A stretch of DNA of 64,000 bases from Dokdonia pacifica (GTDB lineage Bacteria > Bacteroidota > Bacteroidia > Flavobacteriales > Flavobacteriaceae), in the NCBI RefSeq assembly GCF_900188275.1, contig NZ_FZNY01000003.1, forward strand, positions 62,001 to 126,000, in the 5' to 3' direction. This document shows, in pieces, positions 15-62,436 of the stretch. How positions within the stretch are numbered: the stretch's first letter is position 1; the number at the start of each line of letters is the position of its first letter. A program made the position numbers and the translations under genes. The notes beneath the pieces are model-generated. The model was given only the letters and a program-made list of their open reading frames with translations. It had not been told where the DNA came from and did no database searches.

Positions 15-716
15 TTAACCTTCACACGCTTCCCAAACGACATCATCTTTAGGTACAGGAGCTACAAATGTCATTTCTTCTTTTTGTACGGGATGTACAA
101 ACGTAAGTTTACGTGCATGTAAACTAATACTTCCGTCTTTATTAGAACGATCAAAACCATATTTCAAATCTCCCCGTATGGGACTTCCTATAGCTGTCAG
201 TTGACTTCGTATTTGATGATGTCTTCCAGTGTGTAAATCAATTTCAAGAAGCGTAAAAGTTTTTAGTTTTTTGAGCACTCGATAGGTAAGACTTGCTTCT
301 TTTGAATCTGGCACCGCTTTCGCGAAAGCGTAACTTTTATTCTGCTTTGTATTGCGTTTTAAATAATGAGTCAGCGTTGCTTTTTCAGGCGAAGGGTGCT
401 TTTTGACCAATGCCCAATAGGTTTTTTGTGTCTTTCGTTCGGAGAATAATTTATTGAGACGTGTGAGTGCTTTACTGGTGCGAGCAAACACCACAATTCC
501 ACTCGTAGGACGATCTAACCGATGTACAACTCCTAAAAAAACAGCGCCAGGTTTGTTATATTTTTTGGCAATATATTGCTTGACAACCTCGCTTAATGGT
601 GCATCACCCGTTTTGTCACCTTGTACAATATCTCCCGCTCGTTTATTAATCACAATCAGATGATTGTCTTCATAAATCACTTGTAAATTTGTAGGTGTAG
701 AATGCGTATGTGTCAT
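15..716 (-). CDS. RluA-family RNA pseudouridine synthase
   Basis: It is a 233-residue enzyme expected to isomerise uridine to pseudouridine in rRNA or tRNA. The family motif HRLDRPTSG lies at residues 65-73 and holds the catalytic Asp68. A C-terminal HTGRHHQIR motif is also typical of RluA/RluC/RluD proteins. There is no N-terminal S4 domain, so it resembles the short RluA-like subgroup and the exact target base cannot be told. The ATG at 714-716 lies 6 nt after the stop of the MarR gene, so the two are probably co-transcribed. An AFAKA pentapeptide at about residues 130-134 is encoded by a copy of the window-wide palindrome, in what looks like a variable insertion of the fold. Confidence 0.93.
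   Translation of the reverse strand: MTHTHSTPTNLQVIYEDNHLIVINKRAGDIVQGDKTGDAPLSEVVKQYIAKKYNKPGAVFLGVVHRLDRPTSGIVVFARTSKALTRLNKLFSERKTQKTYWALVKKHPSPEKATLTHYLKRNTKQNKSYAFAKAVPDSKEASLTYRVLKKLKTFTLLEIDLHTGRHHQIRSQLTAIGSPIRGDLKYGFDRSNKDGSISLHARKLTFVHPVQKEEMTFVAPVPKDDVVWEACEG
316..329. repeat. GCTTTCGCGAAAGC palindrome inside the RluA-like gene
   Basis: Perfect core, extended by C/G on both sides to 16 bp, read as AFAKA. Confidence 0.9.
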
Positions 717-722
717 AAAGTA

Positions 723-1340
723 TTAAACTGAGGTTCCTGTAGGTTTTACTTCATATTCAGGACAATCTAAACGAATTTCGTGATGTTCTAGAGGCTGTTT
801 TAGATAGTTACAATAATGCCCCTTTCCTTTTTTCTCATAAAAAGCACAGCTATGGCAATTACGTTGTACACTAAGAATCCCCGTTTTATTAAGTCCGTAA
901 ATTAATTTGGTAATGGTATGGTACAGTTGTTTTACCTCATCCTCATCTATATGCTCTAGTTGATGCTTAACAGGAAGTGCAAAATTTTCTATTTGCAGGA
1001 GTAGTTCGTTTCCTTTTTTAGTGAGCGCAATGGCATAACTTCTACTATCTGTAGAGGCCGTTTTCTTTTGAATGAGCTCCTTTTTGAGTAAGGCTTTTAC
1101 GGCATCACTCACTGTAGGTTTTGTAATATTAAACTCTTGCGCAAGATAACTTACGGTACACATCTCTAACTTGTGATGTGCGACAAACAGTACGATTTGT
1201 ATTTGAATAGGGCTTAAGCCTACTACTTTTGCGTGTTCCCAAAGCAATACTTTAAATGCTTCAGAAATACGTTCTAATCCTACCACGACCTTATTAGCAA
1301 TGTCGTCTTGATATGCGGTGTTAAATATTGTTTTTTTCAT
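723..1340 (-). CDS. MarR-family regulator with C-terminal Cys cluster
   Basis: It is a winged-helix transcription factor. The helix-turn-helix is around residues 65-100, with the recognition segment ITKPTVSDAVKALLKK. The ATG at 1338-1340 is preferred over an upstream TTG in the same frame. Beyond the normal MarR length there is a tail of about 45 residues with four cysteines (CHSC, then YC, then DCPEY). This spacing suggests a metal or redox-sensing site and is an inference. A perfect inverted repeat lies immediately upstream (1349-1381) and is a probable autoregulatory operator. The neighbours (mini-thioredoxin, DUF2024, lipoprotein) suggest a thiol or metal stress regulon. Confidence 0.88.
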   Translation of the reverse strand: MKKTIFNTAYQDDIANKVVVGLERISEAFKVLLWEHAKVVGLSPIQIQIVLFVAHHKLEMCTVSYLAQEFNITKPTVSDAVKALLKKELIQKKTASTDSRSYAIALTKKGNELLLQIENFALPVKHQLEHIDEDEVKQLYHTITKLIYGLNKTGILSVQRNCHSCAFYEKKGKGHYCNYLKQPLEHHEIRLDCPEYEVKPTGTSV

Positions 1341-1348
1341 AAGCAAAC

Positions 1349-1381
1349 TTTGCCTATAATGATGTATGTGTTATAGGCAAA
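1349..1381. promoter_or_regulatory. Inverted repeat, probable MarR operator
   Basis: TTTGCCTATAA at 1349-1359 is repeated in perfect inverted form (TTATAGGCAAA) at 1371-1379/1381, with an 11-nt spacer. It lies 8 bp upstream of the MarR start codon. MarR dimers usually bind such dyads and repress their own gene. Binding is inferred. Confidence 0.6.
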
Positions 1382-1410
1382 GTTAGTAATCCTAATTATA
1401 TGATGCGATA

Positions 1411-1674
1411 TTAATCACAATTTTGTAATTCTATAATGTGATATCCCTTTTCTTGAATAGAAGTGATCACTTGAGGCGGTGCTGTTTCCATATGACATAA
1501 ACGACACTCTGAAGCACTCAATGATTGGATATGCACATTTTTGTCACTTAGATAGTCATCACCATATTGGAAGACGGTATCTTCTTCTGAGGTTTCTATG
1601 GGAACCAGAATATCAAAATGCATTAAGGTTCCATTTTTTTTAAGGACATAGGTATCCCAAACGTTTACTTTCAT
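1411..1674 (-). CDS. DUF2024 family protein
   Basis: It is an 87-residue cytosolic protein matching the DUF2024 family as I know it. Visible hallmarks are the start MKVNVWDTYVLKK, the MHFDILVP segment, and a conserved ECRLCHME motif with a CxxC pair near residues 57-60. The function of the family is not established. It sits 4 nt after the lipoprotein stop, so the two genes are almost certainly one transcript. The association with a CxxC thioredoxin-like gene and a Cys-containing MarR protein hints at a thiol or metal role. Confidence 0.85.
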   Translation of the reverse strand: MKVNVWDTYVLKKNGTLMHFDILVPIETSEEDTVFQYGDDYLSDKNVHIQSLSASECRLCHMETAPPQVITSIQEKGYHIIELQNCD

Positions 1675-1678
1675 ACGA

Positions 1679-2407: not shown

Positions 2408-2421
2408 AATGATACATATTC

Positions 2422-4078: not shown

Positions 4079-4585
4079 ATGAGGGGGAAATATATTATTG
4101 GAGGAATGATTTTTGGGCTTGTTTTTTTCGCTTTCGCGAAAATTACCATAGCGCAAAATCAATCACTTACAACAGAAGAGACAAAAGTAAAACATCTGGT
4201 AGAACGTTTTTTTGAAGGTTTTCATAAACAAGACTCTATTATTATTAAAAGTGTCGTTCATGAAAAAATACTTATGCAATCTATTGGAAAGAATAGAACT
4301 GGCGAAGTTGTATTAAGCAAACAAGACTTTAGTGGCTTCTTAGCATCTATCTGTTCTATTCCAGATGAAACTCAATTTGAAGAGCGTATTAAAAGTTACA
4401 AAGTGCAAATTGACGATAATATGGCCATGGCAAATGTATGGACACCCTATTCCTTTTACGTAAATGGAGAATTAAGCCATTGTGGGACCAATAGTTTTCA
4501 GCTTTTTAAACGAGATGGCGTTTGGAAGATCTTTTATATCGTAGATACAAGAGATCGGGAAGGCTGTGGTATTAAACGTGGCTAA
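4079..4585 (+). CDS. Secreted SnoaL/NTF2-like protein
   Basis: It is a protein of about 168 residues with a signal peptide (hydrophobic stretch ending AFAKITIAQ). The mature part begins with a helical KVKHLVERFFEGFHKQD segment and ends with FQLFKRDGVWKIFYIVDTR, the pattern of SnoaL-like/DUF4440-type NTF2 folds. The active site and substrate are unknown. An ATG at 4070 is an alternative start; the frame is open further upstream but would overlap panB on the other strand. The signal peptide contains a partial copy of the window-wide palindrome, read as AFAK. Confidence 0.75.
   Translation: MRGKYIIGGMIFGLVFFAFAKITIAQNQSLTTEETKVKHLVERFFEGFHKQDSIIIKSVVHEKILMQSIGKNRTGEVVLSKQDFSGFLASICSIPDETQFEERIKSYKVQIDDNMAMANVWTPYSFYVNGELSHCGTNSFQLFKRDGVWKIFYIVDTRDREGCGIKRG
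4130..4141. repeat. GCTTTCGCGAAA, 12-bp form inside the SnoaL-like signal peptide
   Basis: Read as AFAK, contributing hydrophobic residues to the signal peptide. Confidence 0.75.
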
Positions 4586-7259: not shown

Positions 7260-8696
7260 TTAGCAATCTGCCATTCCTACATTAATAGCAAGTCCTCCTT
7301 CACTAGTTTCTTTATATTTTGTATTCATATCCTGTGCAGTTTGCCACATAGTTTCTATGACTTTATCAAGAGGTACTTTAGCATTGGCAGCATCTGTATC
7401 TAATGCCATTTCACAGGCATTAATCGCTTTAATAGCTCCCATGGCATTACGTTCTATACAAGGTATTTGTACAAGACCTCCTATAGGATCACAGGTAAGA
7501 CCTAAGTGATGTTCCATGGCAATTTCTGCAGCCATGAGTACTTGCTCTGGTGTTCCTCCCATCAATTCTGTAAGCGCTCCTGCTGCCATAGCACTAGAAA
7601 CGCCTATTTCTGCTTGACATCCACCCATAGCGGCAGAGATGGTAGCTCCTTTTTTAAAGAGACTTCCTATTTCTCCAGCAACAAGTAAAAACTTACGAAT
7701 GTCTTCAAAGTTGGCATCGTGATTTTCAATCACCATATAATACATCATTACAGCTGGAATAACACCTGCACTTCCATTGGTAGGCGCTGTGACAACACGT
7801 CCTAAGGAGGCGTTTACCTCATTTACAGCTAAAGCAAAGCAAGACACCCATTTTAAAATTTCGCGAAAGCGTACTTCTGTACCACGAATGGCTTCGATCC
7901 ATTCATATTTATCAGTATATGAAATACCTTTTTGTAATTTTTGATGACTGTCATAAGCGCGACGGCGTACATTGAGTCCGCCTGGAAGGGTTCCTTCTGT
8001 ATGACATCCTGTATACATAGAATCTAACATTACATCCCATATCTGTTTGAGACGTTCGTTAATTTCTTCTTCGGTGTTGAGATATAATTCGTTTTCAAAA
8101 ACAATTTCTGAAATCGATTTGTTTTCATTTTTACAATAAGCGAGAAGATCTGTTGCTAGCTCGACAGGTCTGGGAAAGCATTGGAATTGATGTGTTTTTA
8201 ATTCGGAACGTTTTCGTTCTTCTTGTACAACAAAACCACCTCCAATAGAGTAAAAAGTCTCTTCTATGATTTGTGTTCCTATATATGCTTTAAATGTAAT
8301 TCCATTGGGATGAAATGGTAAAAATTCACGATTGAATTTTATAGATTCAGAGGGATCAAAAGGAATGACGTGTTCTCCATTAAAAGCAATTTCTTTTGTG
8401 GTCTTGATGTTCTCAATCGTTGTAGGAATGGCATCAATAGCACACGTTTGCGGGTCGGTTCCCAGAAGCCCCATCATTACCGCAACATCTGTGGCGTGTC
8501 CTTTTCCTGTTAAGGACAAAGACCCATATAAATCTATATGTAAACGATCTACACTGTCAAACAGTTGCTCTTCCTTGAGCTTTTTTATAAAGCGACGTCC
8601 TGCACGCCAAGGGCCTAATGTATGAGAACTGGAAGGACCTACGCCTATTTTTAGCATATCAAATACAGAGATACACTCTATTTCTTTTTCTTTCAT
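7260..8696 (-). CDS. sdaA: L-serine ammonia-lyase (iron-sulfur, single chain)
   Basis: It is a 478-residue L-serine dehydratase that turns serine into pyruvate and ammonia using a [4Fe-4S] cluster. The beta domain begins with the GVGPSSSHT signature. The alpha domain carries the cluster cysteines in [16 protein letters not shown] and IPCIERN. The protein ends in Cys (GMADC), the C-terminal cysteine known to occupy the active site in related type 2 enzymes. Its ATG overlaps the stop of the GNAT gene (ATGA), so the two are translationally coupled. A 12-bp form of the palindrome is read here as RFREI. Confidence 0.97.
7859..7870. repeat. TTTCGCGAAAGC, 12-bp form inside sdaA
   Basis: Read on the minus strand in the FRE frame (VRFREIL). 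Confidence 0.75.
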
Positions 8697-9205
8697 GTAA
8701 GATCATATTGCATGATGTAATCTGTCTGAATTTCGGCAATCATATCATATTGATGTGTGCCAGTGATCTTAAAACCACACCTTTTATAAAATCGAATTGC
8801 ATCTGGGTTTTCTTCCCAAACGCCTAACCAAATGTAGTTTTTTTCCAGTTTAAGTGCTTCAGAAATCGAAAAATCTATTGCTTTTTTTCCAAATCCCTTA
8901 CTTATGTATGGAGAATCTATATAAATACGTTCAATTTCAAGTCCGTTTTTATCCTGAAATTCTGTTTGTGCATTCCCTACATTTAGTTTGAGATAGCCAA
9001 CAATCGTATCTTTTTGTTTCAAAAAATACCAATAAGAATCTGGTGCTAAAAGTTGTTTTTCTAAATGCGCTTTCGCGAAAGCGTATACCACATATTTCTC
9101 TAACACACCAGGTTTGTTTTTATGAGCAAAAGCGTCTGTATATGTACGTATAGCTAATGAACGTAGGGTATCAATATCTTGTAAATGGATAGCGTGAAAT
9201 TGCAT
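8693..9205 (-). CDS. GNAT-family N-acetyltransferase
   Basis: It is an enzyme of about 170 residues of the GNAT fold. Motif A is visible as IERIYIDSPYISKGFGKKAIDF (acetyl-CoA pyrophosphate loop), and motif B as NPDAIRFYKRCGF near the C terminus. The start at 9205 (MQFHAIHLQD) is chosen because the upstream in-frame ATG would overlap the preceding gene. It starts 2 nt after the CPBP gene stop and overlaps sdaA by 4 nt, so all three are one operon. A full palindrome copy is read as YAFAKAH in a helix before motif A. The acceptor substrate is unknown. Confidence 0.88.
   Translation of the reverse strand: MQFHAIHLQDIDTLRSLAIRTYTDAFAHKNKPGVLEKYVVYAFAKAHLEKQLLAPDSYWYFLKQKDTIVGYLKLNVGNAQTEFQDKNGLEIERIYIDSPYISKGFGKKAIDFSISEALKLEKNYIWLGVWEENPDAIRFYKRCGFKITGTHQYDMIAEIQTDYIMQYDLT
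9068..9083. repeat. 16-bp palindrome inside the GNAT gene
   Basis: Perfect core with C/G extensions, read as AFAKA. Confidence 0.9.
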
Positions 9206-11674: not shown

Positions 11675-11688
11675 GCTTTCGCGAAAGC
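11675..11688. repeat. GCTTTCGCGAAAGC palindrome (intergenic)
   Basis: A perfect 14-bp core lies between umuC and dnaK, flanked by T-rich and A-rich sequence. It could also form a terminator-like hairpin for umuC. Confidence 0.9.
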
Positions 11689-13934: not shown

Positions 13935-13946
13935 GCTTTCGCGAAA
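13935..13946. repeat. GCTTTCGCGAAA palindrome, 12-bp form
   Basis: It matches 12 of the 14 core bases, immediately after terminator 2. Confidence 0.75.
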
Positions 13947-14173
13947 TGGTATACTTTGATTTTACCTCTCTAGAGTGACAATGTGCTTCTTTATTTTCGC
14001 GCTAAGCAAAATTCTTTTTTATCAAAAAAACTTTGTGTAAATATCTAGCGTTTTTTATTTTTTTTATTAATTTAACTGTCTAGTTTGCTGATAACTAATC
14101 CTACTAAATAAAATTATGAAAGTACATGATTTGGAAGTTTAATCATGGAAATATGATTTAATAGGATAGATTT

Positions 14174-24298: not shown

Positions 24299-24309
24299 TC
24301 TGTATACAT

Positions 24310-24321
24310 TTTCGCGAAAGC
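24310..24321. repeat. TTTCGCGAAAGC palindrome, 12-bp form
   Basis: A partial copy lies between the esterase and GNAT genes, 12 bp upstream of the esterase start codon. Confidence 0.75.
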
Positions 24322-25391: not shown

Positions 25392-26512
25392 TGACGGACG
25401 TTTCTTTTTTTGAACATATTACACAACAATTTGATGATGCGCTTCCTTTTGTAGCTTATAGAAAGCCTAATAGCAAACAATTACGAGCTTTCTATCAAGA
25501 AGAAAATAGCATACATTACAACAAAGATTTTACCGAAAGTGGTTTTGTATTTGCTCCTTTTGATAACACCCAAAAAAGTATCATTATTCCCGATACGCAT
25601 AGCATAGATTGTAACTTTAGTACAGTTGGAGTCACGCATAATTTATCAGAAGTGATACTTCCAGATGAAGATACTCTTGAGAAGGAGAAGCATCTTGAAT
25701 TAGTTCAAAAAGGAATATTAAAAATAAATGAAGGGGGTTTAAAGAAGGTTGTGCTTTCGCGAAAGCGTACTTTTCCAGATACCTTGACAAATCCTATTAC
25801 AATTTTTAAAAAACTATTACAAAGATATACCACCGCTTTTGTCTATATATGGTATCACCCTAGTATTGGATTATGGTTAGGCGCTACTCCAGAAACTTTA
25901 TTGGAAATAAAGAATAGAACTTTGTATACAATGTCTCTTGCAGGCACGCAACGATATACTCAGGATGATAAAATCATTTGGGGAGCAAAAGAAAAAGAAG
26001 AGCAGCAACTAGTAACAGATACAATCGTTACTCGATTACAGCCACTTACCAAGAATCTTTCGGTTGGAGCTGTAGAAAATCACAAAGCTGGTAACTTATT
26101 ACATTTAAAGACTCCTATTTCTGCAACATTAGATGAGACAGAAGTATCTTTAAAAGAAGTGATCAATGCATTACATCCTACGCCTGCTGTATGCGGACTT
26201 CCCGTAGAAAAAGCAAAAGCGTTTATTATAGATCATGAAAACTATGACCGTTCTTATTATACAGGTTTTTTAGGTGAACTTAATTTAAAAAACGAAACTC
26301 ATCGTTCTACATCTAGACGTAATGTAGAAAATCTAGCCTATAGAAGTGTCAAAAAAGGCACTCATCTTTTTGTGAATTTGCGTTGTATGGAACAAACGGT
26401 AAAAGGAATGCAAGTCTATATAGGAGGTGGTATTACGAGTGCTAGCATCCCGGAAGCAGAGTGGGAAGAAACTAGACACAAACTGGAAACCATGGGGAGT
26501 GTGTTGTTTTAA
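25391..26512 (+). CDS. menF: Isochorismate synthase
   Basis: It is a 373-residue chorismate-utilising enzyme that converts chorismate to isochorismate, the first committed step to menaquinone. Visible family motifs are GGLKKVVLSRKR, WLGATPETLLE, TMSLAGT, HLKTPISATL, HPTPAVCGLP and the C-terminal YIGGGI. It is slightly shorter at the N terminus than E. coli MenF. It is coupled to the thioesterase and followed by menD. A full palindrome copy falls exactly on the conserved LSRKR segment, in a different reading frame from the usual AFAKA. Confidence 0.93.
   Translation: MTDVSFFEHITQQFDDALPFVAYRKPNSKQLRAFYQEENSIHYNKDFTESGFVFAPFDNTQKSIIIPDTHSIDCNFSTVGVTHNLSEVILPDEDTLEKEKHLELVQKGILKINEGGLKKVVLSRKRTFPDTLTNPITIFKKLLQRYTTAFVYIWYHPSIGLWLGATPETLLEIKNRTLYTMSLAGTQRYTQDDKIIWGAKEKEEQQLVTDTIVTRLQPLTKNLSVGAVENHKAGNLLHLKTPISATLDETEVSLKEVINALHPTPAVCGLPVEKAKAFIIDHENYDRSYYTGFLGELNLKNETHRSTSRRNVENLAYRSVKKGTHLFVNLRCMEQTVKGMQVYIGGGITSASIPEAEWEETRHKLETMGSVLF
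25753..25766. repeat. Palindrome inside menF
   Basis: Perfect core read in the LSRKR frame, on a conserved enzyme motif. Confidence 0.9.
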
Positions 26513-30753: not shown

Positions 30754-31887
30754 TTATTTTCTAATTTTTTTAGAAATATTTTTAGGCAAACCATCTCTAT
30801 GCATAAGGACTGAAATAGCTTTTAATCGTATGTACGAAACACTCATATATACATAGCCATCATACGCAGTACGATCTGGGTTTGTTCCCCAAGAATTTTT
30901 TACTTTATAATAGACAGTCCCATTTTGATCTTTTGCTTTTCCTGTAATATGCATTAAATGATCATCGGTGGTATTATAATTTTCAAATTCGTCCTGACGG
31001 TATTGTTGTGTAATTACCTTTTCTTTTTCAGGGCCTAATACAGCTAGTTTTGCATTTTCTTTCTGGTCAGGAATAACAGCAACTCCTTGTTTTGAAGAAA
31101 ATGATAACTCGCTCACATCGCAATCTAATGTAATTGTAAAACCATTTTCTAATGCATGGTCTATACTTTGAATAAACTCATCAAGAGAAACATTATAAAA
31201 AGAACCGTTTGAAAAATTGTCGGGTATATTTAAAATAAACGAACTGTAGCGTGGAGCATGTGTAAAGGAGGTAAGTGAGATATATTCACTAGGATGAATA
31301 CGCATGGCCTTTGCAAATTCTTTTGGGGTATATTCATTATTTTCAAATGAAAAGCGTGTTACTTGCGCTCCTAAATAAGTGTCAAGTACAGCATTTACTG
31401 CAGGTTTCCATTTTTTACTTAACCTACGTCCAGGATTATCTATATAGGTGTTAAGCATAGCTTCTATAACAGCTACCATTTCTGCGTGATTATGCGTATT
31501 TTCTGTAGGTGCTAGTCCAGTATATGCATCTAAAGGTACAAGACCATATCTAGCCACACTATTGATTACATCATGCGCAAGTCCGCCTTCACTAAATTGT
31601 GCTTTCCCTTGTCGCATCACATAATTTTCAGCTTTCATAGGATACGTATTCCGTACTGTATACATTTCAGAAAGGTCTACTTTTTTACCAGTAATTCGTG
31701 TAATCTCACTCTCTAAAAATGATGAGGTAGAAAAACTCCAACATGTTCCTGTATTTCCTTGACTTATTACCGGAGTAGTTTCTAGATCAATGAGATCCGT
31801 AAAAATATATGAGGCATTTGTTTCCTGTGCTAATACCGCTTTCGCGAAAGCAAAAACAAGAATAATACTAAAGGTGAACTTTTTCAT
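30754..31887 (-). CDS. Secreted C1 cysteine peptidase (bleomycin hydrolase/PepC-like)
   Basis: It is a 377-residue papain-type protease. The signal peptide ends near AVLAQ. The catalytic Cys is in GNTGTCWSFSTSS (near residue 49), the His in DDHLMHITGKA and the Asn in VKNSWGTN, in the order typical of the C1B/bleomycin hydrolase group. It is shorter than cytosolic PepC and exported, so its role is probably periplasmic or extracellular peptide breakdown. A palindrome copy encodes the FAFAKAV core of the signal peptide. It is divergent from menB. Confidence 0.92.
   Translation of the reverse strand: MKKFTFSIILVFAFAKAVLAQETNASYIFTDLIDLETTPVISQGNTGTCWSFSTSSFLESEITRITGKKVDLSEMYTVRNTYPMKAENYVMRQGKAQFSEGGLAHDVINSVARYGLVPLDAYTGLAPTENTHNHAEMVAVIEAMLNTYIDNPGRRLSKKWKPAVNAVLDTYLGAQVTRFSFENNEYTPKEFAKAMRIHPSEYISLTSFTHAPRYSSFILNIPDNFSNGSFYNVSLDEFIQSIDHALENGFTITLDCDVSELSFSSKQGVAVIPDQKENAKLAVLGPEKEKVITQQYRQDEFENYNTTDDHLMHITGKAKDQNGTVYYKVKNSWGTNPDRTAYDGYVYMSVSYIRLKAISVLMHRDGLPKNISKKIRK
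31838..31851. repeat. Palindrome inside the C1 peptidase signal peptide
   Basis: Perfect core read as AFAKA within the hydrophobic core of the signal. Confidence 0.9.
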
Positions 31888-37104: not shown

Positions 37105-39240
37105 TTATGATATGTGTTTTATCATAATATCTAATAGTCCGATGGCGGCTTCGCTTATTTTAGTACCTGGTCCAAAAACAGCAACGGCTCCTGCATCAAA
37201 TAAAAACTGATAATCCTGTTGAGGAATTACACCTCCTACAATCACCATGATATCAGGGCGTCCTAGTTTCGTCAATTCTTCGATAACTTTTGGAACAAGT
37301 GTTTTGTGACCTGCAGCTAATGAAGAAACTCCTAAAATATGGACATCATTTTCCATGGCTTGTTTGGCAGCTTCTTTTGGGGTTTGAAATAAAGGACCAA
37401 TATCTACATCAAAACCTATATCTGCATATCCTGTTGCGACTACTTTTGCACCACGGTCATGTCCGTCTTGCCCCATTTTTGCAATCATAATACGAGGACG
37501 ACGACCATCTAATTCTGCAAATTGGTTTGCTAGTTGTTGCGCTTTCGCGAAAGCGGGATCTTTTTTAATTTCTTTACTATACACGCCACTAAATGATTTT
37601 ATCGTCGCTTTATGCCTCCCGTACACTTTTTCTAGGGCATCAGAAATTTCACCTAGTGTAGCACGTTCACGGGCAGCGATTACAGCCAAAGCTAATAAAT
37701 TATTTTTACCAGACCGAGCAGCTTCAGTGAGATCTGAAAGTGCTTTCGTTACCTTTTTTGTATCTCGTTTTTTCTTAATACTTTTTAACCTTTCTAATTG
37801 ACCATCTCGAACTTTTGTGTTATCTACTTCAAGAATATCAAGAAACTCCTCTTCTGTAGGGCGATATTTATTGACGCCTACAATAATGTCCTGACCGCTA
37901 TCAATACGAGCTTGTTTACGAGCGGCAGCTTCTTCTATACGTAATTTAGGAATACCTGCTTCTATGGCTTTGGTCATGCCTCCTAAATTTTCTACCTCTT
38001 GTATTAATTCCCAAGCTTTATGAGCAATAGCATCCGTAAGAGATTCTACATAATAACTACCAGCCCAGGGATCGACAGTACGTGTGATTTCGGTTTCTGT
38101 TTGTAGGTATATTTGTGTATTACGTGCAATACGAGCAGAAAAATCTGTAGGTAATGCAATAGCTTCATCTAATGCATTGGTGTGTAAACTTTGTGTGCCA
38201 CCAAAAGCAGCCGCTGTCGCTTCTATACACGTACGAGCCACATTATTAAATGGATCTTGTTCTGTAAGACTCCATCCACTAGTTTGACAATGCGTTCGTA
38301 GTGCTAATGATTTTGGATTTTTAGGATTGAATTGAGCTACTAACTTTGACCATAACATACGAGCAGCACGCATTTTTGCTACTTCCATAAAATGATTCAT
38401 TCCTATGGCCCAGAAAAAAGATAAACGAGGTGCAAATGTGTCTATGTCCATTCCTGCTTTTAGACCCGTACGAATATACTCAAGTCCATCGGCTAGGGTA
38501 TAGGCGAGTTCTATATCACAGGTAGCTCCTGCTTCTTGCATATGGTAACCAGAGATAGAGATAGAATTAAATTTAGGCATCTCTTTAGAAGTATACTCAA
38601 AAATATCTGAGATAATACGCATGGAAGGTGTAGGAGGATAGATATAGGTGTTACGTACCATAAACTCCTTAAGGATGTCATTTTGTATGGTGCCAGATAG
38701 TGTTGAAGGTGCTACGCCTTGTTCTTCGGCAGCAACAATGTAAAATGCCATAATCGGAAGTACTGCTCCATTCATAGTCATAGAGACAGACATTTGATTT
38801 AATGGTATTTGATCAAATAGCATTTTCATGTCTTCTACAGAATCTATAGCCACACCAGCTTTTCCTACATCGCCTACTACACGTTCATGATCACTATCAT
38901 ATCCTCTGTGTGTAGCAAGATCAAAAGCTACAGAAAGCCCTTTTTGCCCAGCAGCAAGATTACGACGGTAAAAAGCATTACTTTCTTCGGCAGTAGAAAA
39001 TCCAGCATATTGCCTTACTGTCCATGGTCTTCGTACATACATAGTACTGTAAGGACCTCTCAAGTTGGGTGCAATACCAGCTACAAAATCTAGATGTTCT
39101 AGGTTTTCAATATCTTCTTTGCTATATCGCTTTTTAAGGTCAATAGTTTCTGCTGTAGGCATTGTTTCTTTAGCTACTTCATGATTTGATGAAGTGGCTA
39201 AAGCATCTAAAGTAATATGGTCTAGTTTTTTTCTAGTCAT
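37105..39240 (-). CDS. mutB: Methylmalonyl-CoA mutase, large (catalytic) subunit
   Basis: It is a 711-residue adenosylcobalamin enzyme interconverting methylmalonyl-CoA and succinyl-CoA. The catalytic barrel shows [37 protein letters not shown] and [16 protein letters not shown]. The C-terminal B12 domain has the DxHxxG cobalt-ligand motif (DGHDRG) with [13 protein letters not shown] and [10 protein letters not shown] palindrome copy encodes [10 protein letters not shown] in the linker before the B12 domain. Its start overlaps the lipoprotein stop by one base. Confidence 0.97.
37541..37554. repeat. Palindrome inside mutB
   Basis: Perfect core, 16 bp with flanks, read as AFAKA before the B12 domain. 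Confidence 0.9.
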
Positions 39241-39843: not shown

Positions 39844-41211
39844 TTAAGCTTCTGTTTTAAGGCGTTCTTGTTCCATCTTTTCAGATAGACGTTGTTTTAT
39901 GATAGGTTCAATAAGTGTTTTCCTAGGTTTGATCTTTACAAATGGGTATAACTCTAATGAGTCTTTCATACGATCACTTGGATTGGGATGTTTATTGGTT
40001 CCTAAAAGGATTTTTTCTTGTGTGTCAAATTGGGTTTGTTCTTTTTGAGCACTTTCTTTGATTTTACGTTGTATGGTTCCTTCTTTGAGTTGCTTTAGAA
40101 ATCCGCCTTGTTGTTCTATATCTTTAAAAAGTGCTAATGCTTTTTCGGCTAATTGTTTTGTAATGGCTTCTATATAATAAGTTCCATCAGAAGGATTACT
40201 TACAGCATCAAAGTAGCTTTCTTTTTTAAGAATGATTAATTGGTTACGAGAAATACGTTGCCCAAAATCATTGGTTTTGTGATAAATGTAATCATAAGGC
40301 ATATTAATTACTGTATCTGCTCCTCCTAATACAGCGCTCATAGCTTCGGTTGTAGTACGAAGCATATTGGTATTGTAATCATAGATGGTTTTATTACGGC
40401 GTGTTGGTCTGGCAATAATATGAGTGGTGGCCGCTTTCGCGAAAGCGTACTCATCTTTTAAAACAGTTATCAATTGACGTAAAGCGCGAAGCTTAGCGAT
40501 TTCAAAGAAGTAATTAGATCCAATGGCTACTTGAAATGTAATGGAAGGTATTGAAACCTCCATCTCATTGAGATGAAGAAGGTATTCATTTGCATGCGCC
40601 AATCCATAGGCAAGCTGCTGTACCATGGTAGCTCCTGCATTTTGGTACAGGTCTATATCTATAGATATTGTATGTGTTTCTTTTTGTAAAATATTATCTA
40701 GCATACGGTGATCTTCTGCGAGGTTGTGATACCAGTTACCTTCTTCTGCTAGATGATGGATGAGGTCTATATTTAAATATACAGTACGATCTCCCGCTTC
40801 TTTAATGATTTCTTGATAGAAATTTTCATCAAGAAAATGTAATTTAAAATAAATTGGAGCGTAGGTTTTATCAAGTGTATTAAAAAATAGTCGCGCATCA
40901 AAAGGAGCATCTGCACTAAAATAAAGTGCTTCTGCACCTGAGGCGATATAGTTATTTGCTGTTTGAACTGCTAAACTAGTGTCGTGTATGAAAATATCTT
41001 CTCCTATATGCCAAGTAGCTGGGAGTCCAGGTACTTCTGGGAAATGTGTCGTTTCGTCTCTGTGATAGAAAGGCTTAATGTCAATACCTTCATTGGTATT
41101 CCATACCAAGGTATCATTATAGGAAGCGCCTTTAAGATCAAACTGTATTTTCTGTTTGAATGCTTTAGAAGACACAGGGTCAAAATTGGAAAAGAGTTTA
41201 TTCTTTGTCAT
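39844..41211 (-). CDS. mutA: Methylmalonyl-CoA mutase, small subunit
   Basis: It is a 455-residue homologue of the mutase barrel without the B12 domain. It starts MTKNKLFSNFDPVSSKAFKQ and keeps family segments such as NMLRTTTEAMSAVLGGADTV and DPSDGTYYIEAITKQLAEKA-like sequence, but lacks DxHxxG. It forms a structural heterodimer with MutB. A palindrome copy encodes DEYAFAKAATTH. It overlaps the FtsB/DivIC-like stop by 14 nt, so it follows that gene in one operon. Confidence 0.94.
   Translation of the reverse strand: MTKNKLFSNFDPVSSKAFKQKIQFDLKGASYNDTLVWNTNEGIDIKPFYHRDETTHFPEVPGLPATWHIGEDIFIHDTSLAVQTANNYIASGAEALYFSADAPFDARLFFNTLDKTYAPIYFKLHFLDENFYQEIIKEAGDRTVYLNIDLIHHLAEEGNWYHNLAEDHRMLDNILQKETHTISIDIDLYQNAGATMVQQLAYGLAHANEYLLHLNEMEVSIPSITFQVAIGSNYFFEIAKLRALRQLITVLKDEYAFAKAATTHIIARPTRRNKTIYDYNTNMLRTTTEAMSAVLGGADTVINMPYDYIYHKTNDFGQRISRNQLIILKKESYFDAVSNPSDGTYYIEAITKQLAEKALALFKDIEQQGGFLKQLKEGTIQRKIKESAQKEQTQFDTQEKILLGTNKHPNPSDRMKDSLELYPFVKIKPRKTLIEPIIKQRLSEKMEQERLKTEA
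40433..40446. repeat. Palindrome inside mutA
   Basis: Perfect core, 16 bp with flanks, read as AFAKA. Confidence 0.9.
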
Positions 41212-43221: not shown

Positions 43222-43236
43222 AGGTATGCTTGTTTT

Positions 43237-43258
43237 ATACGCTTTCGCGAAAGCGTAT
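43237..43258. repeat. GCTTTCGCGAAAGC palindrome extended to 22 bp
   Basis: ATACGCTTTCG and its exact inverse complement make a 22-bp perfect palindrome in the 45-bp gap between the two DUF4249 genes. It is the longest copy in the window. Confidence 0.92.
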
Positions 43259-43266
43259 GTATATAA

Positions 43267-46681: not shown

Positions 46682-46695
46682 GCTTTCGCGAAAGC
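46682..46695. repeat. GCTTTCGCGAAAGC palindrome (divergent promoter region)
   Basis: A perfect core lies between the TonB receptor and the sensor kinase genes, 7 bp before the first direct repeat of the putative LytTR site. Confidence 0.9.
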
Positions 46696-51739: not shown

Positions 51740-51759
51740 TACGCTTTCGCGAAAGCGTA
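51740..51759. repeat. GCTTTCGCGAAAGC palindrome extended to 20 bp
   Basis: TACGCTTTCG plus inverse, ending one base before the icd stop codon. It lies between convergent genes. Confidence 0.92.
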
Positions 51760-54344: not shown

Positions 54345-56666
54345 TTATCTAATGATTAATTTCTTAGTAATCGTATTGTTATTTCCAATAATGTGCAGGA
54401 AGTAAACCCCTTTAGCTAATTCATTTGTTTGGATGTTTTGTGAGCTGCTAAAATTTTTCAAATCAACTGTTTTAACAATTTTTCCGTTCATGTCTACAAT
54501 AGAGAGTTGCTGTAATATAGATTTACCCGTATACCTTAACATTACCTGATCTGTTGCAGGGTTAGGGTATATGTTTACGCTTTCGCGAAAGCTAACTTCG
54601 TCTATCCCTAGTGGGTCACGTTCTTCAAATAGAACCGTAAATCGTTCGGGCTGTATTCCTTTGTTGGCGGTAAATGTGTATGTGTTTTCCTTTAGGTTTA
54701 TACTTGCGTTTGTAAGATGGTCTATTAAGAAAATAGGAGTGTTTTCTAAATGTACACCTTCTAAATGATCAATTCCGATAGTATATGCAACAGTCTCTTC
54801 TATAGTAGTAGAAAAACCAAGCTGTAATTCTATCTCAGAATTAAAAGATTCTCTACCTTGAATACCAAGGTATTCTCCATCTAAATTTGTAAATAAGGAC
54901 AGGAAGGTTCCTAGACGTTTTGAATCATACCCTTGATCAAAACCTGCAGTTGCATTTGGGGTAAACCCAATGGCAGTTTGAGCAATTGCTTCATCATACG
55001 TTGAGGTCGTAAGATTTAACCAAAGCTTCTCTATTTCTGATGTTGTTTCTGAAGATCTAAAATCAGTATTGTTTCCTGTAACTCGTTGACTATTTGAAAA
55101 TATAACTGGCGAATTGTTAACCATTTCTGATTGATCAGCCTTGATTCCAAATCCTTGTCCTGATGCCATGAAAGGGCCTGGCGCCGTACCTCCATTAACA
55201 GCAGCCAGTCCCATCATCACATTACGCATTGAGATATCATTCATTGAAAAGTTGCTTGTTCCGAAGCCGGGTAAATCTGCTACAGGATTTGTTATGTGAT
55301 CCCAATAATAGACCTCATTTACAGCAATGTTAGCATTAAGAAAAGCAGTGACATCTATAGCAGATGCGTAAGGATTACCTAGTAGATTATAGTTATTTGT
55401 TGTTTCGGGACCGTTATAATTAATTGGTACAGAGATGATTCCTGAGTTTAAAGTTCCTTGTGTAAACTCAAAAGTATAAGAAGAAGTGGGTGAATCATGA
55501 GATGGGGAAGGGAATACAAGATTTCCAATTCCTGAATCTGGCAGGGTTCTATTTCCTATATATGGATCTAGATAATCCCCATCATCATCTAGGAAGTTTT
55601 CAGCATTAGTAAACTCAGGAAATGTAACTAAATCAATACTATAGGGGGCAAAATTGCTAGGGATAATACCAAAAACAGCTCTAGAAGTTCCATAAACTCC
55701 ATCTCTAGTTTCTGCACTCATAGGACTACTCATTGCAAAAAAGTTACGAGCAGCTATAGAAGGGGTTACTTTTTGTACTATAATATCCCCGTTATTTATT
55801 GTTACTGCATCTTCTTGAACTTGTACAAGACTACTTTCCGAACTTACAAATAATGAACCAGTTGGGTTTACAGTAATATTGTTTTCTATAGAAATATAAG
55901 AGTTATTCACAATTGATACAGGGCCATTTATGATGAGTTCACAAGCAGAGAAGGAGCTTAGAATTGGTCCGCCTACTATAGCACTTGTATTAATAATAGC
56001 TGTCATAGTAGCATCAGGAGTTCCATTATCCCAAGAATCATTTTCCCAAGTTGTAATTTCTCCTGAGCATGCTGGTTCTGGAATAGCAGCACCCGAGCAA
56101 TCAAAAGAGTCATCTGTTATTTGTACTCCGGGAAAAGTGAAACAATCGGCACCAAAGGCACCACCACAGGCCGTATAGTTTAGATCTGTAAAATTGTCAC
56201 TTGATTCAAAACAAATCATAGGATCGATGTCCACTTGACCAGGAGCATTATATCTTATTTTCAAGTGAGTAAGTACAGTTGGAGTTGTTGTGACTGCTCC
56301 ATTACCAGACGCTATATAAGCAGATTCTGGTGCAATTTGCACATAACTTAGAGAAAGTCTAGAACCAGTATTATCTGTAAAAACAGTTGTCCAAAATCCC
56401 GCAGATAGAATATGTGTACCTTCTTCAAAAATAGCATTCCCAGAAGCTTGTGCTGCTGTACCAAATGCATCTGTGTTGTAATTAATATAAAATTGTCCTG
56501 TCCCAAGATAAAAATTGGAGGTAGAAGAAACAACAATGTCTACCTCATAATAATCATCATTACCATCATTTGTGATTTGGGCATTTTCTAATGTAAATGA
56601 GATGTCTTGCTGTGCATAGGAGATACTCATACTTAATAGAAAAAGTATATATATAATTTTTTTCAT
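54345..56666 (-). CDS. Large secreted protein with T9SS sorting domain
   Basis: It is a 773-residue protein with a signal peptide (ends ISYAQ). The N-terminal part is a beta domain of the cohesin/choice-of-anchor kind (ISFTLENAQITNDGNDDYYEVDIVV). The middle lacks recognised domains but has the repeated-in-family TNNYNLLGNPYASAIDVTAFL segment found in many flavobacterial T9SS proteins. The C-terminal 80 residues form a type A sorting domain (VNIYPNPATDQ). A palindrome copy is read as SFRES directly before that domain. It lies 48 nt downstream of the CSLREA gene in one operon. Confidence 0.85.
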   Translation of the reverse strand: MKKIIYILFLLSMSISYAQQDISFTLENAQITNDGNDDYYEVDIVVSSTSNFYLGTGQFYINYNTDAFGTAAQASGNAIFEEGTHILSAGFWTTVFTDNTGSRLSLSYVQIAPESAYIASGNGAVTTTPTVLTHLKIRYNAPGQVDIDPMICFESSDNFTDLNYTACGGAFGADCFTFPGVQITDDSFDCSGAAIPEPACSGEITTWENDSWDNGTPDATMTAIINTSAIVGGPILSSFSACELIINGPVSIVNNSYISIENNITVNPTGSLFVSSESSLVQVQEDAVTINNGDIIVQKVTPSIAARNFFAMSSPMSAETRDGVYGTSRAVFGIIPSNFAPYSIDLVTFPEFTNAENFLDDDGDYLDPYIGNRTLPDSGIGNLVFPSPSHDSPTSSYTFEFTQGTLNSGIISVPINYNGPETTNNYNLLGNPYASAIDVTAFLNANIAVNEVYYWDHITNPVADLPGFGTSNFSMNDISMRNVMMGLAAVNGGTAPGPFMASGQGFGIKADQSEMVNNSPVIFSNSQRVTGNNTDFRSSETTSEIEKLWLNLTTSTYDEAIAQTAIGFTPNATAGFDQGYDSKRLGTFLSLFTNLDGEYLGIQGRESFNSEIELQLGFSTTIEETVAYTIGIDHLEGVHLENTPIFLIDHLTNASINLKENTYTFTANKGIQPERFTVLFEERDPLGIDEVSFRESVNIYPNPATDQVMLRYTGKSILQQLSIVDMNGKIVKTVDLKNFSSSQNIQTNELAKGVYFLHIIGNNNTITKKLIIR
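54579..54592. repeat. Palindrome inside the T9SS gene
   Basis: Perfect core read in the FRES frame, at the junction between cargo and sorting domain. Confidence 0.9.
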
Positions 56667-59858: not shown

Positions 59859-59889
59859 GGAGTACATTTGTTATTGTAGTTTTAGGGTT

Positions 59890-60012: not shown

Positions 60013-60053
60013 TGGTGGACACTCCTTAAAAATAAATGGACAAATGGTGGACA
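60013..60053 (-). promoter_or_regulatory. Three phased TGTCCA boxes
   Basis: TGGACA on the plus strand (TGTCCA on the minus) occurs at 60016-60021, 60037-60042 and 60048-60053, spaced 21 and 11 bp, near whole helical turns. The outer two extend to TGGTGGACA. It lies 155-195 bp upstream of the CSLREA gene start and is a possible regulator site. Confidence 0.5.
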
Positions 60054-60085
60054 AAAAAAAGGCAAATTATTATAAATGCCTTTTT
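60053..60085 (-). terminator. Terminator of the TPR-HTH gene
   Basis: AAAAAGGCA (60056-60064) pairs with TGCCTTTTT (60077-60085). On the minus strand it is followed by a T8 run. Confidence 0.75.
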
Positions 60086-60107
60086 GTTAGAAGATTATGA
60101 TGTTTTT

Positions 60108-62027
60108 TTAAAAACTCTGTAGAAACTCATCTAAATCCTGTCTTTGTGTAAGGTTTAGTTTTTTACGCAATCTATAACGACTTTTTTTTACAGAAGAAGG
60201 GTTGATATTTTGAAGTATTGCAATCTCTTTATTTTCAATATTCATTCTAATAAGAGAACATAAGCGTACTTCAGTTTTTGTTAGGTTTGGGAATTGACTA
60301 TTTAAACCTTTATAGAAACTATTACTTAATGTTTCTATACGATCTTGAAAATCATAAGATCCATCATCTACCCATATTTTGTTTTTAATTTCATTTTCTA
60401 AATCCTCTAATTCATTAGCTCTAGCTCTTCCTGTGGTCGTTTTTAATTTTTCAAGTTTTTTGACTAGTGTTTTGGCCCACTCTTGATTCTGGGAAATATT
60501 AAATGCAAAATCAGTAAGATCCTTTTTTTGATACTCAATTTCTTTATCAAGCATTTGATTTTTCATTTCGGCTAGATCTTTTTTGTTTTTATTGATTACT
60601 GCCTTTTGTTTATTTTTTTTGTTGTTAAAATAGTAAAAAGCTCCAGCCGCAAATAATGCTAGCGCAATTAAGAGCATCCATTGAAATTGAACTTTATTCT
60701 TAGTGTCTAATAATTCTACTTGAGTGTCTAATAATTCGATTTCAGATTGTTGTTGTTTAATTTCTGAATCTCGTTTTTCCATTTCATAAAGCGTCTGATA
60801 ATAGGATAGCGCCTTTACTTTTTTTGTACTCTCTATGGAGTCTTTAATAGTAATATATTCTTTTAAATAATCTAATGCTGCGGTATAATTCCCTATCTTT
60901 TCATTTGCTATAAATAGAAGTCTATTCGTTCCCATAATCCCACTATAATATGTAGACTCTTCTTGAATTTTTAACAGCTCTAATCCAGTAACTCTAGCTT
61001 GTTCATACTTTTCTTCTTTCAAATAGAGTTTTGTTAAAGCCTCTAAATACTGTCTTTTTAAAATAATATCGGGTCTATTGATATCTATCTTTTCTTTAAG
61101 TCTTTTAAGCATTGATTTTGCTAAATTCAAGCTATCAGTTTCTACGTAAGAATTTGCTAATGTTTTAAGGGCTGCAATTTCAAACATTTGAAATTGAGGA
61201 AATTCTTTAATGATTTCTAATTGTCTTTTATTGTATTTAATAGCAGCTGCGTAATTATTTTGTGCATATTGATTATTAGCTCGGTTACCTAAATTTACTA
61301 GATAGGGACCATATTCTTTCATTTGATAAGACAAGGAGTCAATAGCTTGCTGCTCTTTTTCGGCTTCATCATAAAAATCATTTTGTCCATATAATATAGA
61401 GAGTCCAATACGTACTTTTAAAATATTGACAGAGTCCTTTTTGTTAAGAAATATAGAAAGTGCTTTTTGATATTCTTGAGAAGCTTTTGCAAATTCACCT
61501 ATTTGCGATAGCGCAAATCCTTTATATCCTTTATATCTTGCATATTGTGTAGAATCTTTTGCAATTAGAGAAAATGCTTCTGCTTTTTCATACAATGAAA
61601 TAGATTCTTGTTCAAAACCGGATTCAAAGTAACTATCGGCGCCACTTCCATATAAATAGGAAAGTGCAAGCGTGTCAGTAACCGGTAAATCTTTGGCTAT
61701 AAAATTCTTAAATAATTGAAGGCCTTCTTCAGTTTGTCTTATTCTATTTACTAAATAAAAAATACGTTGCCCAGTATGTTTGGCTGCTATATTTATAGAA
61801 TCTAATTCAAAAGCTAGTGTAATTGTTTCTTTTACTATAGAGTCGTATGGAAACTCTCGTCTTTCTCTTGTTAATTCAGAAAGACTGTCTAAGAGTTTAA
61901 GTTTTTCAACACCTTTCGATTGGTGGATAATTTCTTTAAGATTGCTAACTTTTGTTGAAAGTGGATTTTCTTGTGCATTGCTTACCAAAGAAATACAAAA
62001 AATGCTATAGAATAGTAACGTTTTCAA
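60108..62027 (-). CDS. Membrane TPR sensor with C-terminal LuxR-like HTH
   Basis: It is a 639-residue protein with a signal peptide (ends VSNAQ), periplasmic TPR units (residues about 30-390, for example YQKALSIFLNKKDS), a helical stalk, and one transmembrane helix near residue 450-470 (MLLIALALFAAGAFYYF). A cytoplasmic coiled coil and a C-terminal helix-turn-helix follow (LTKTEVRLCSLIRMNIENKEIA...SSVKKSRYRLRKKL), as in LuxR/GerE proteins. It could act as a one-component membrane regulator with no kinase step. The stalk KVKALSYYQTLYEMEKRD is nearly the same in the histidine kinase at 63087. Confidence 0.88.
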   Translation of the reverse strand: MKTLLFYSIFCISLVSNAQENPLSTKVSNLKEIIHQSKGVEKLKLLDSLSELTRERREFPYDSIVKETITLAFELDSINIAAKHTGQRIFYLVNRIRQTEEGLQLFKNFIAKDLPVTDTLALSYLYGSGADSYFESGFEQESISLYEKAEAFSLIAKDSTQYARYKGYKGFALSQIGEFAKASQEYQKALSIFLNKKDSVNILKVRIGLSILYGQNDFYDEAEKEQQAIDSLSYQMKEYGPYLVNLGNRANNQYAQNNYAAAIKYNKRQLEIIKEFPQFQMFEIAALKTLANSYVETDSLNLAKSMLKRLKEKIDINRPDIILKRQYLEALTKLYLKEEKYEQARVTGLELLKIQEESTYYSGIMGTNRLLFIANEKIGNYTAALDYLKEYITIKDSIESTKKVKALSYYQTLYEMEKRDSEIKQQQSEIELLDTQVELLDTKNKVQFQWMLLIALALFAAGAFYYFNNKKNKQKAVINKNKKDLAEMKNQMLDKEIEYQKKDLTDFAFNISQNQEWAKTLVKKLEKLKTTTGRARANELEDLENEIKNKIWVDDGSYDFQDRIETLSNSFYKGLNSQFPNLTKTEVRLCSLIRMNIENKEIAILQNINPSSVKKSRYRLRKKLNLTQRQDLDEFLQSF

Positions 62028-62436
62028 AGTGAGGTTGTTTAGGGAAATGTTCTATTTAAATATAAGAAAATATATTTTGATGATTTATAGGTTTTTATTG
62101 AGTAGTTACATTGTTTGTTTATTAAGAATTATTTGTTGTGTATTACGCTTTCGCGAAAGCGTATTTTTCATTTCCCTAAATTGGTGCTATATTTTTTACC
62201 AGTATTATTAGAGATATCACTTGTTTTAGCAATACTAAATTGACAAATAAATAATACAAGAATTTAAATGGTATTTAGGGAGGTTTTCATTTTAAAGTGA
62301 TATTCATAAATATTATACCTGCAATGTAAATTGAGATCGTATATAAAAAAATAAGCGCAAACGCGTATTATATAAGAGTTAACACGTATTAAAGCAAAAG
62401 AAATTGAATTGAACATAAAAAAAGAGTTATTGACTG
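62028..62436. other. Intergenic region with palindrome and paired repeats
   Basis: No gene is seen. TTTAGGGAAATG at 62038-62049 is repeated in inverted form (CATTTCCCTAAA) at 62169-62180, flanking the 20-bp palindrome at 62144-62163. The rest is AT-rich and should contain the promoter of the TPR-HTH gene and the 3' end of the response regulator. Confidence 0.55.
62144..62163. repeat. GCTTTCGCGAAAGC palindrome extended to 20 bp
   Basis: TACGCTTTCG plus inverse, upstream of the TPR-HTH gene. It is the same 20-bp form as the copy at 51740. Confidence 0.92.

Follow-up and report, generated by a model that had tools for sequence, protein, structure and literature searches.

What is a perfect 14-bp palindrome doing, again and again, inside the enzymes and between the genes of a flavobacterium? 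The window analysed here, a 64,000-nucleotide stretch of the Dokdonia pacifica genome, carries 12 perfect copies of GCTTTCGCGAAAGC and four 12-bp forms, 16 sites in all; dinucleotide shuffles of the same DNA yield on average 0.10 sites when up to two mismatches are allowed. All 16 lie where the preliminary description had put them, nine in ORFs and seven intergenic, and every one of the 16 occurrences of TCGCGA in the window falls within TTTCGCGAAA. Of six coding copies said to read AFAKA, five do so exactly and the sixth (4130) reads AFAKI; the FRE(S) and LSRKR readings of the other three are accurate. The sites, to which no strand is assigned, are the following, with G013 and G014 denoting genomes used for comparison.

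316..329, perfect 14-mer in a pseudouridine synthase gene, AFAKA
4130..4143, one-arm form GCTTTCGCGAAAAT in an ORF overlapping another ORF, AFAKI
7857..7870, one-arm form AATTTCGCGAAAGC in a serine dehydratase gene, RFREI
9069..9082, perfect 14-mer in a GNAT acetyltransferase gene, AFAKA
11675..11688, perfect 14-mer, intergenic, upstream of an Hsp70 gene; retained in G014
13935..13948, one-arm form GCTTTCGCGAAATG in the intergenic DNA that follows the Hsp70 gene (downstream)
24308..24321, one-arm form ATTTTCGCGAAAGC, intergenic; retained in G014
25753..25766, perfect 14-mer in a chorismate-binding enzyme gene, LSRKR; retained in G014
31838..31851, perfect 14-mer in a C1-type peptidase gene, AFAKA; retained in G014
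37541..37554, perfect 14-mer in a methylmalonyl-CoA mutase gene, AFAKA
40433..40446, perfect 14-mer in a second mutase-subunit gene, AFAKA; present in G014, absent from G013
43241..43254, perfect 14-mer in the spacer separating two DUF4249 genes; missing from G014 (deletion), present in G013
46682..46695, perfect 14-mer, intergenic, between divergent genes; retained in G014
51743..51756, perfect 14-mer, intergenic, between convergent genes, adjoining isocitrate dehydrogenase; retained in G014
54579..54592, perfect 14-mer in a gene with a Por secretion (T9SS) tail, SFRES
62147..62160, perfect 14-mer within a 20-bp palindrome, intergenic, with a terminator-like score

The repetition is genome-wide and belongs to a clade. 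The genome of the window (genus Dokdonia) contains 903 copies of the 14-mer, and 0 of the same letters reversed without complementing. Counts run from 369 to 905 in 18 of 18 Dokdonia genomes and from 288 to 857 in 23 of 23 genomes of a second genus, that is, 288–905 copies in 41 of 41 at a density of about one per 3.7–6 kb, while the 129 other genomes compared alongside Dokdonia hold 0–17 each. Among the genomes tested the motif is confined to these two genera, and a literature search found no earlier report of it. The picture of a highly iterated, orientation-free palindrome that is tolerated inside enzymes, outwardly similar to HIP1 of cyanobacteria, thus survives at the scale of whole genomes.

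The consensus is exceptionally strict. Three stretches of 440 kb contain 125, 119 and 107 perfect copies against 11, 9 and 20 with one mismatch, a ratio of 5–13 to 1, and 200 palindromes of matched composition are all absent from them. Most one-mismatch copies deviate at one of the two outermost positions of an arm (7 of 11, 6 of 9 and 14 of 20). Around the 14-bp core the palindrome extends to 20–24 bp, information falls to 0.25 bit per base or less outside about 22 bp, and TCGCGA lacking the surrounding motif shows no enrichment, at 0.45–0.85 of expectation.

A trivial origin in coding constraints, either a count no higher than a codon-aware null or a set of conserved protein motifs, had been named as what would undermine the preliminary description. 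When synonymous codons are shuffled, 40 times for each stretch, the mean number of coding copies is 0.07–0.23 and the maximum 1, where 58, 60 and 59 are observed; AFAKA itself occurs 31, 35 and 37 times against means of 0.11–0.16 for its permutations, and the genic copies, about half of the total, occupy all three frames. The copy at 37541 is found at the identical position in 16 of 17 motif-clade sequences, the second genus included; at this site all 17 clade sequences read AFAKA and none of the 79 outgroup loci does, and the 14-residue segment is free of gaps in every outgroup sequence of the alignment. At this mutase site, the one coding site for which substitution and insertion were compared against outgroups (79 loci and the 17 clade sequences), the motif arose by point substitution with replacement of amino acids. 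The outgroup alignment and the codon shuffles rule out a protein motif and an effect of codon usage, and insertion is rejected at the tested site, where residues are replaced without a gap.

Copies are spread evenly, with coefficients of variation of the spacing of 0.71, 0.52 and 0.58 in the three stretches and only 2, 2 and 3 gaps below 500 bp, where 16.5, 14.9 and 12.2 are expected. In 62 stretches of the complete G016 chromosome the mean is 5.44 copies and the variance 2.79; density is uniform, dependence on ori/ter is absent, and motif-free gaps of 16–17 kb span giant genes. Intergenic DNA holds about half of the copies and is enriched in them. Core genes contain 163 copies in 992 kb, accessory genes 7 in 117 kb and those in between 7 in 78 kb, a count that takes each orthologue once per genome, so that copies are non-independent, and in which the accessory DNA of G016 consists largely of two giant genes. 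Between G016 and G006, at 80% identity, 42 of 52 aligned genic copies are identical, against 9.7% of control windows. Indel differences affect 5 of 49 aligned intergenic copies (G016 against G008) and 3 of 58 genic ones (G008 against G016), and occur in 14.5% of intergenic control windows.

Two further observations concern the movement of DNA. G016 and G008 share tracts that are 96% identical amid a background of 77% identity; those specific to this pair hold 26 of 88 copies where 19.5 are expected (p = 0.044), a small excess with p values of 0.016–0.15 over five non-independent comparisons. These two species recombine extensively in short tracts in which the motif is weakly over-represented. 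Tract boundaries are not close to motifs, with 2 and 4 found within 50 bp in two counts, each against 4.2 expected. Six phage contigs carry 25 copies in 185 kb, a density biased upward, since the contigs were found through the motif and hand-picked among the matches listed. Four relatives from other hosts have 0 copies in the 115 kb of partial sequence compared, and two Nonlabens phages, whose host genus may not be a motif genus, have 0 in 70.7 kb. With an integrase or a Mu-type transposase in four of the six contigs, at least four motif-bearing phages are temperate as judged by gene content.

On these sequence patterns, the genomic signature of DNA-uptake signals, the USS and DUS of Pasteurellaceae and Neisseriaceae, is the best match. 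As described in part of PMC1626085, USS and DUS have a strong consensus and originate by substitution; excerpts of PMC5031613 add their association with conversion fragments and their clustering in the core, and PMC6776037 their accumulation in temperate phages and not in large, likely lytic ones. The Dokdonia motif has in common with them the hundreds of copies, a strong consensus with few copies one base off, the origin by substitution, spacers that are enriched yet leave many genic copies, the core bias and, less clearly, the temperate carriers and a weak concordance with conversion tracts. Unlike them, it lies in Bacteroidota and is a perfect palindrome of 14 bp (20–24 bp when extended); the consensus sequences of USS and DUS in PMC5031613 are non-palindromic. 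Of the roles that had been listed for the palindrome, an uptake signal is the one that fits best, on consensus, substitution, core bias, phages and the weak tract excess. By analogy, the palindrome is a candidate self-recognition tag for genetic exchange that would work like USS and DUS, a reading to which we give a probability of roughly 0.5. Fragments bearing it would be preferentially taken in, or would preferentially survive and recombine; if tagged DNA is preferentially acquired, alleles with the palindrome would spread by drive plus selection.

The putative reader would be a protein dimer of two-fold symmetry, would bind duplex DNA and may reside in a competence or uptake machine, presumably not always a type IV pilus. 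A PilB/PilT-type ATPase (PF00437) scores above cut-off in 5 of 12 Dokdonia genomes (G000, which is the window's own, G004, G013, G015 and G017); it is below cut-off or absent in G006, G008, G009 and G016, which are complete and rich in the motif, and in G027 of the second genus. Above cut-off it is missing from 8 of 13 motif genomes, a further difference from USS and DUS, and present in 0 of 11 others, so a route through a standard type IV pilus is not shared by all of them. ComEC is found in 24 of 24 genomes and, since these include outgroups, does not discriminate. Within the same class, Riemerella columbina prefers its own DNA in competition experiments (PMC7965970), although in the part of that paper concerned only AT-rich frequent k-mers are listed, with no established uptake signal.

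A more far-reaching version, a palindromic code of self-identity that would be new in kind, is tentative: a dimeric reader exclusive to the two genera would recognise the 20–24-bp palindrome on any resident DNA and decide on its admission, keeping or recombination, needing neither a type IV pilus nor methylation, and would have dictated the residue at hundreds of places in the proteome. Resident DNA here comprises the chromosome, prophages and integrated elements. We know of no earlier uptake tag in Bacteroidota, nor of any palindromic one. An uptake tag would therefore be the first of both kinds, would suggest that flavobacteria have a receptor for DNA uptake that does not belong to the type IV pilus systems and would account for the mosaicism observed, in which genomes 77% identical have 96%-identical tracts in common. 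If it is something else, some dimeric protein would recognise its hundreds of genomic sites strongly enough to override amino-acid preference. Either way, the 41 clade genomes, the phages and the close outgroups provide material for the question of drive versus selection on iterated sequences.

The main rival to the uptake tag, if an unlikely one, is a site of chromosome architecture or replicon maintenance, in which a clade-specific dimeric protein would bind about one site per 3.7–6 kb on all resident DNA (chromosome, prophages and integrated elements) and organise it, DNA without sites being disfavoured. The perfect symmetry, the even spacing and uniform coverage of G016, the retention of copies within genes and the occurrence of the motif in phages that encode an integrase or a transposase are all compatible with such a protein; the tolerated 16–17 kb gaps across giant genes are less so. 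Sites of Noc, MatP and parS are likewise two-fold symmetric, of similar length and read by dimers, but number in the tens and depend on ori/ter; the Dokdonia motif has hundreds of copies, and because its density is uniform in G016, organising sites of the ori/ter-dependent kind are disfavoured. Nor are there extra ParB paralogs (1–2 in 12 Dokdonia genomes, 1–3 in outgroups). The suggested chromosome-organising protein may thus be involved, but not in its ori/ter-dependent form or through an additional ParB. Binding sites of regulatory proteins, moreover, typically have a more relaxed consensus, according to a passage in PMC1626085.

A HIP1-like site linked to an orphan DNA methyltransferase and mismatch repair is improbable. 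HIP1 and the alternate HIPs are, in the portion of PMC4390886 that describes them, also GC-rich, iterated palindromes found genome-wide in genes and spacers, with deviations gathering at the outer bases, and the Dokdonia motif has this form in an AT-rich genome; HIP1, however, has 8 bp and occurs about once per kb, against 14–22 bp and one per 3.7–6 kb. The search for methyltransferases covered three families, none of which is consistently present: PF00145 (C5) is missing from 10 of 18 Dokdonia genomes, PF01555 (N6/N4) exceeds cut-off in 0 of 12, and PF02086 (D12) is absent from G006, G008, G009 and G027. G006 and G009, both complete and rich in the motif, lack all three, PF01555 as judged by cut-off, which speaks against the proposed methylation site, as does the lack of enrichment of TCGCGA outside the motif. 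The usual methyltransferase site is also far shorter than 14–22 bp.

It is also quite improbable that the motif acts like Chi, controlling an end-resecting nuclease and starting recombination. Chi resembles it in density and spread and recombination is extensive, but a symmetric site of this length is unsuited to single-strand recognition, and the tract boundaries, which are not close to motifs, lend no support to the repair role once proposed. A mobile or replicating REP/MITE-like element is very improbable: indels do separate species at some copies (43241 in G014 and the 5 intergenic and 3 genic cases), yet intergenic indels are frequent regardless, the outgroup-tested coding copy is a gap-free replacement and information fades past about 22 bp. 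Least credible of all are intrinsic terminators or RNA hairpins, given that about half of the copies are genic, in all three frames, and that only one of five perfect copies between 43000 and 62500 (62147) scores as terminator-like, even if the RNA of three extended copies is predicted to fold into hairpins of 8–10 bp.

The palindrome GCTTTCGCGAAAGC is real, clade-specific and strongly maintained, and as far as our searches went it has not been reported before. The preliminary description had proposed that it is highly iterated in the window, and this was confirmed site by site, with 12 perfect copies and four one-arm forms (12-bp versions with a single GC arm) against a shuffle expectation of 0.10. 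The 5.52-Mb genome of Dokdonia pacifica, in whose contig 18 the window lies, contains 903 copies of the 14-mer and none of a reversed control 14-mer. A search of 148 genomes of relatives found 369–905 copies in 18 out of 18 Dokdonia genomes, 578 in one genome of a second genus, plausibly Nonlabens, and 0–17 in the remaining 129. When the search was centred on the 578-copy genome, 288–857 copies were present in all 23 genomes of the second genus; among the other 95 genomes, seven held 1–6 copies and the rest none. In a phylum-wide sample of 296 genomes, any copy at all was found in 16, D. pacifica included, with a maximum of four outside D. pacifica. Dokdonia genomes larger than 4 Mb are not richer (570–903 copies vs 757–905 in those of 3.3–3.4 Mb), and because they hold no more copies than the small ones, the DNA added to them is suggested to be motif-poor.

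Beyond the two genera, one outgroup locus of 79 (L026) has a single copy of the 14-mer, and a plasmid search with a 100-bp piece of the window returned seven matches, all short and weak. Clusters of the motif do occur in other genera, on contigs G029:C18 (L330, L331; six per 92 kb) and G275:C1 (L332; four per 16 kb), and are likely to be elements transferred from motif-bearing hosts. A ParB_N protein in a 616-aa open frame lies near the G029 cluster, and one of equal length is encoded in D. pacifica. No earlier report of the palindrome was found in the open-licence literature on palindromes of flavobacteria, Dokdonia or Nonlabens, nor any mention of GCTTTCGCGAAAG; flavobacterial and TTTCGCG terms are absent from the accessible part of a paper on spaced motifs (PMC5217627).

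The palindrome is a DNA-level feature. The preliminary description had raised two ways in which the copies inside genes could be trivial, namely codon usage and conserved protein motifs, and neither accounts for them, the second as judged by alignment at one coding site. Three 440-kb stretches contain 58, 60 and 59 coding copies, and synonymous-codon shuffles yield at most one. The peptide AFAKA, which occurs 31, 35 and 37 times in these stretches, is motif-encoded in 31, 34 and 35 cases, and permutations of its residues average just 0.11–0.16 occurrences. At the methylmalonyl-CoA mutase gene (window copy 37541..37554), sequences from the two motif genera encode AFAKA in 17/17 cases, 16 of them with the perfect motif, vs 0/79 outgroup loci, where the first residue is S, T or N in 79/79 and the third is not A in 77/79; this alignment excludes G007, a genome without a mutase match, and G012, in which the gene is split in two. 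Since the outgroups lack AFAKA and none of the 79 loci shows a gap at this site, the motif there arose by substitutions that changed amino acids, with synonymous positions later kept.

The copies are highly uniform. In a census covering 1.24 Mb of the Dokdonia genome G016 and 440 kb each of two others, G008 and G006, the 10-bp centre TTTCGCGAAA occurs 680 times, with both GC arms in 563 cases, one in 117 and none in 0. Symmetry continues into the flanks, with C at −1 in 81–87% of perfect copies and then a preference for A, T and T. Copies with one mismatch are few (11, 9 and 20 in three 440-kb stretches), and the mismatches are mostly in the arms. Away from the motif TTCGCGAA is depleted (three in G016 vs 14.9 expected, and none in G008 and G006 vs about five each), with a milder depletion in outgroups (11 vs 17 expected).

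Placement is also non-random. Intergenic copies make up 46–54% of perfect copies (67/125 in G016, 59/119 in G008 and 49/107 in G006) in genomes with just 9–11% non-coding DNA; genes were called here with our own ORF caller, which relies on a plain hexamer score and differs from published gene finders. Copies are spaced more evenly than chance would give (CV 0.52–0.71). In G016, 62 stretches of 20 kb have a mean of 5.44 copies and a variance of 2.79, and no motif gap is seen at the GC-skew sign change among them. Core genes carry 0.155–0.172 copies per kb vs 0–0.071 in accessory genes. The longest motif-free gaps in a 440-kb G016 stretch lie over genes encoding proteins of 4431 and 5060 aa; these giant genes belong to a repeated cassette (G016:C1:287411-320307) with 318-aa neighbours that share their first 60 residues.

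Copies persist where the surrounding DNA has diverged. Between G016 and G006 (79.8% identity where aligned), 42/52 genic and 33/47 intergenic copies are identical, and control windows are so in 9.7% and 15.3% of cases; the G016/G008 pair gives 50/54 and 40/49, compared with 24.1% and 30.8%, with unaligned copies left out (6 genic and 20 intergenic for the first pair, 4 and 18 for the second). Nine copies of the window could be aligned to the examined sequence of another Dokdonia genome, G014; eight of them are kept there and one is deleted. The G016/G008 comparison is a mosaic, with identity in 500-bp windows peaking at 75–80% and 93–98%; tracts of about 96% identity against a background of 77% are seen between G016:C1:200001-640000 and G008:C1:700001-1140000. 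A four-state model assigns 22% of the DNA aligned to both partners to a class in which G016 is 96% identical to G008 and 80% to G006, as expected if genomes that differ at species level have recently exchanged much DNA. In this model the motif is slightly over-represented within the tracts (26/88 vs 19.5 expected; p=0.044, using the 88 of 125 G016 copies whose flanks align to both partners). Simpler two-state comparisons gave p=0.016–0.15 in five non-independent tests, and p=0.06 and 0.03 when no correction for alignment was applied.

The motif is also found in viral DNA. A scan of IMG/VR located it in at least 120 stretches from at least 80 loci, and 13 viral records with 1–7 copies each were picked from the listed matches for their number of copies, their flanks and a low G+C content. 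Ten of these were examined and six counted. Left out were G437, G442 and G444, which are relatives of G440, and, outside the ten, G438, which has the same sites as G445, and G446 and G447, which have one copy each. Phage genes were recognised in six of the seven non-redundant examined records.

Phage genes in the six counted IMG/VR contigs (PHROG matches)
G440: terminase, portal, head and tape measure, with an integrase
G445: terminase and portal, with a Mu-type transposase
G439: terminase and a related portal, with a Mu-type transposase
G436: terminase and portal
G435: tape measure; the terminase match is weak
G441: primase and integrase; the tail match is weak

Judged by gene content, at least four of the six are temperate. 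Across the 185 kb of the six contigs the motif occurs 25 times and is read in each of the three frames, and one motif position is common to three portal genes of 65–68% protein identity. Because these phages were found via the motif, the evidence they provide is limited to the recurrence of copies, the conservation of their positions and the difference from relatives: examined parts (115 kb) of related phages from Cellulophaga (two), Flavobacterium and Winogradskyella contain no copy, and neither do two Nonlabens phages (70.7 kb) with no integrase among their listed features. The seventh record, G443 (L327, L328; 28.4 kb), is filed as viral and has two copies; its examined proteins match DNA helicase and DNA methyltransferase families and large proteins of unknown function, a content closer to that of a defence island than to that of a phage. 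This record was left uncounted because these proteins do not show a phage; including it gives 27 copies in 213.6 kb.

By analogy, a palindromic uptake or identity tag would be the most likely role, with a probability of about one half. In the accessible parts of the papers cited, the uptake signals of Pasteurellaceae (USS) and Neisseriaceae (DUS) are sharp in consensus and originate by substitution (PMC1626085), agree in position with conversion fragments and cluster in the core genome (PMC5031613), and build up in temperate phages, not in large, likely lytic ones (PMC6776037). Natural transformation with self-preference is reported in the same class (PMC7965970). Sharp consensus, substitution origin (at the mutase site) and core bias recur here, and the conversion-tract and temperate-phage features, weakly tested, may do so too; in this the motif behaves like an uptake signal. 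Membership of the USS/DUS family is a candidate assignment, opposed by the symmetry of the palindrome itself and by a PilB/PilT ATPase missing in 8/13 motif genomes; a PilB/PilT-type ATPase scored above cut-off in 5/12 Dokdonia genomes, D. pacifica included, and in 0/11 outgroups. Profile searches of whole genomes found no reader protein. Other readings weighed were a site of chromosome architecture, a methylation target, a Chi-like site, a mobile element and a terminator. The presence of methyltransferases (PF00145, PF01555, PF02086) does not consistently match the motif, no extra ParB paralog was found, and tract boundaries do not lie at motifs, leaving no signal of a Chi-like role.

Several further observations were made along the way. 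D12-class DNA methyltransferases (PF02086) are present in 9/12 Dokdonia genomes (weakly in G004) vs 1/11 outgroups. The 79 outgroup loci, most of them some 22 kb long, gave no long iterated palindrome that passed filters. Some short strings did pass, among them related 12-mers in L027, and GCAATTGC, with six copies in L045 and five in L066 (flavobacterial outgroup loci of about 23 kb), is possibly another iterated palindrome. The window has a second iterated string, CATCATTATCAAAATC with variants (11 copies of ATTATCAAAA and related k-mers), which we guess encodes Asp/Asn-rich calcium-binding repeats near a dockerin-type match in ORF 56715-59867. Por secretion tails were seen on 3 of 20 scanned window proteins. 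A pair of neighbouring DUF4249 genes (42328-44154) adjoins a TonB-dependent receptor gene, and its cross-matches with the G014 counterpart (L005; 71–72% nucleotide identity) suggest a tandem duplication. Finally, TTCGAA is strongly avoided in the G016, G008 and G006 stretches (L119-L194, L343-L382; 0.09–0.12 of expectation) and ATCGAT less so (0.30–0.45), both being close to 1 in outgroups; restriction avoidance, or the shunning of a near-cognate site, is a possible cause.
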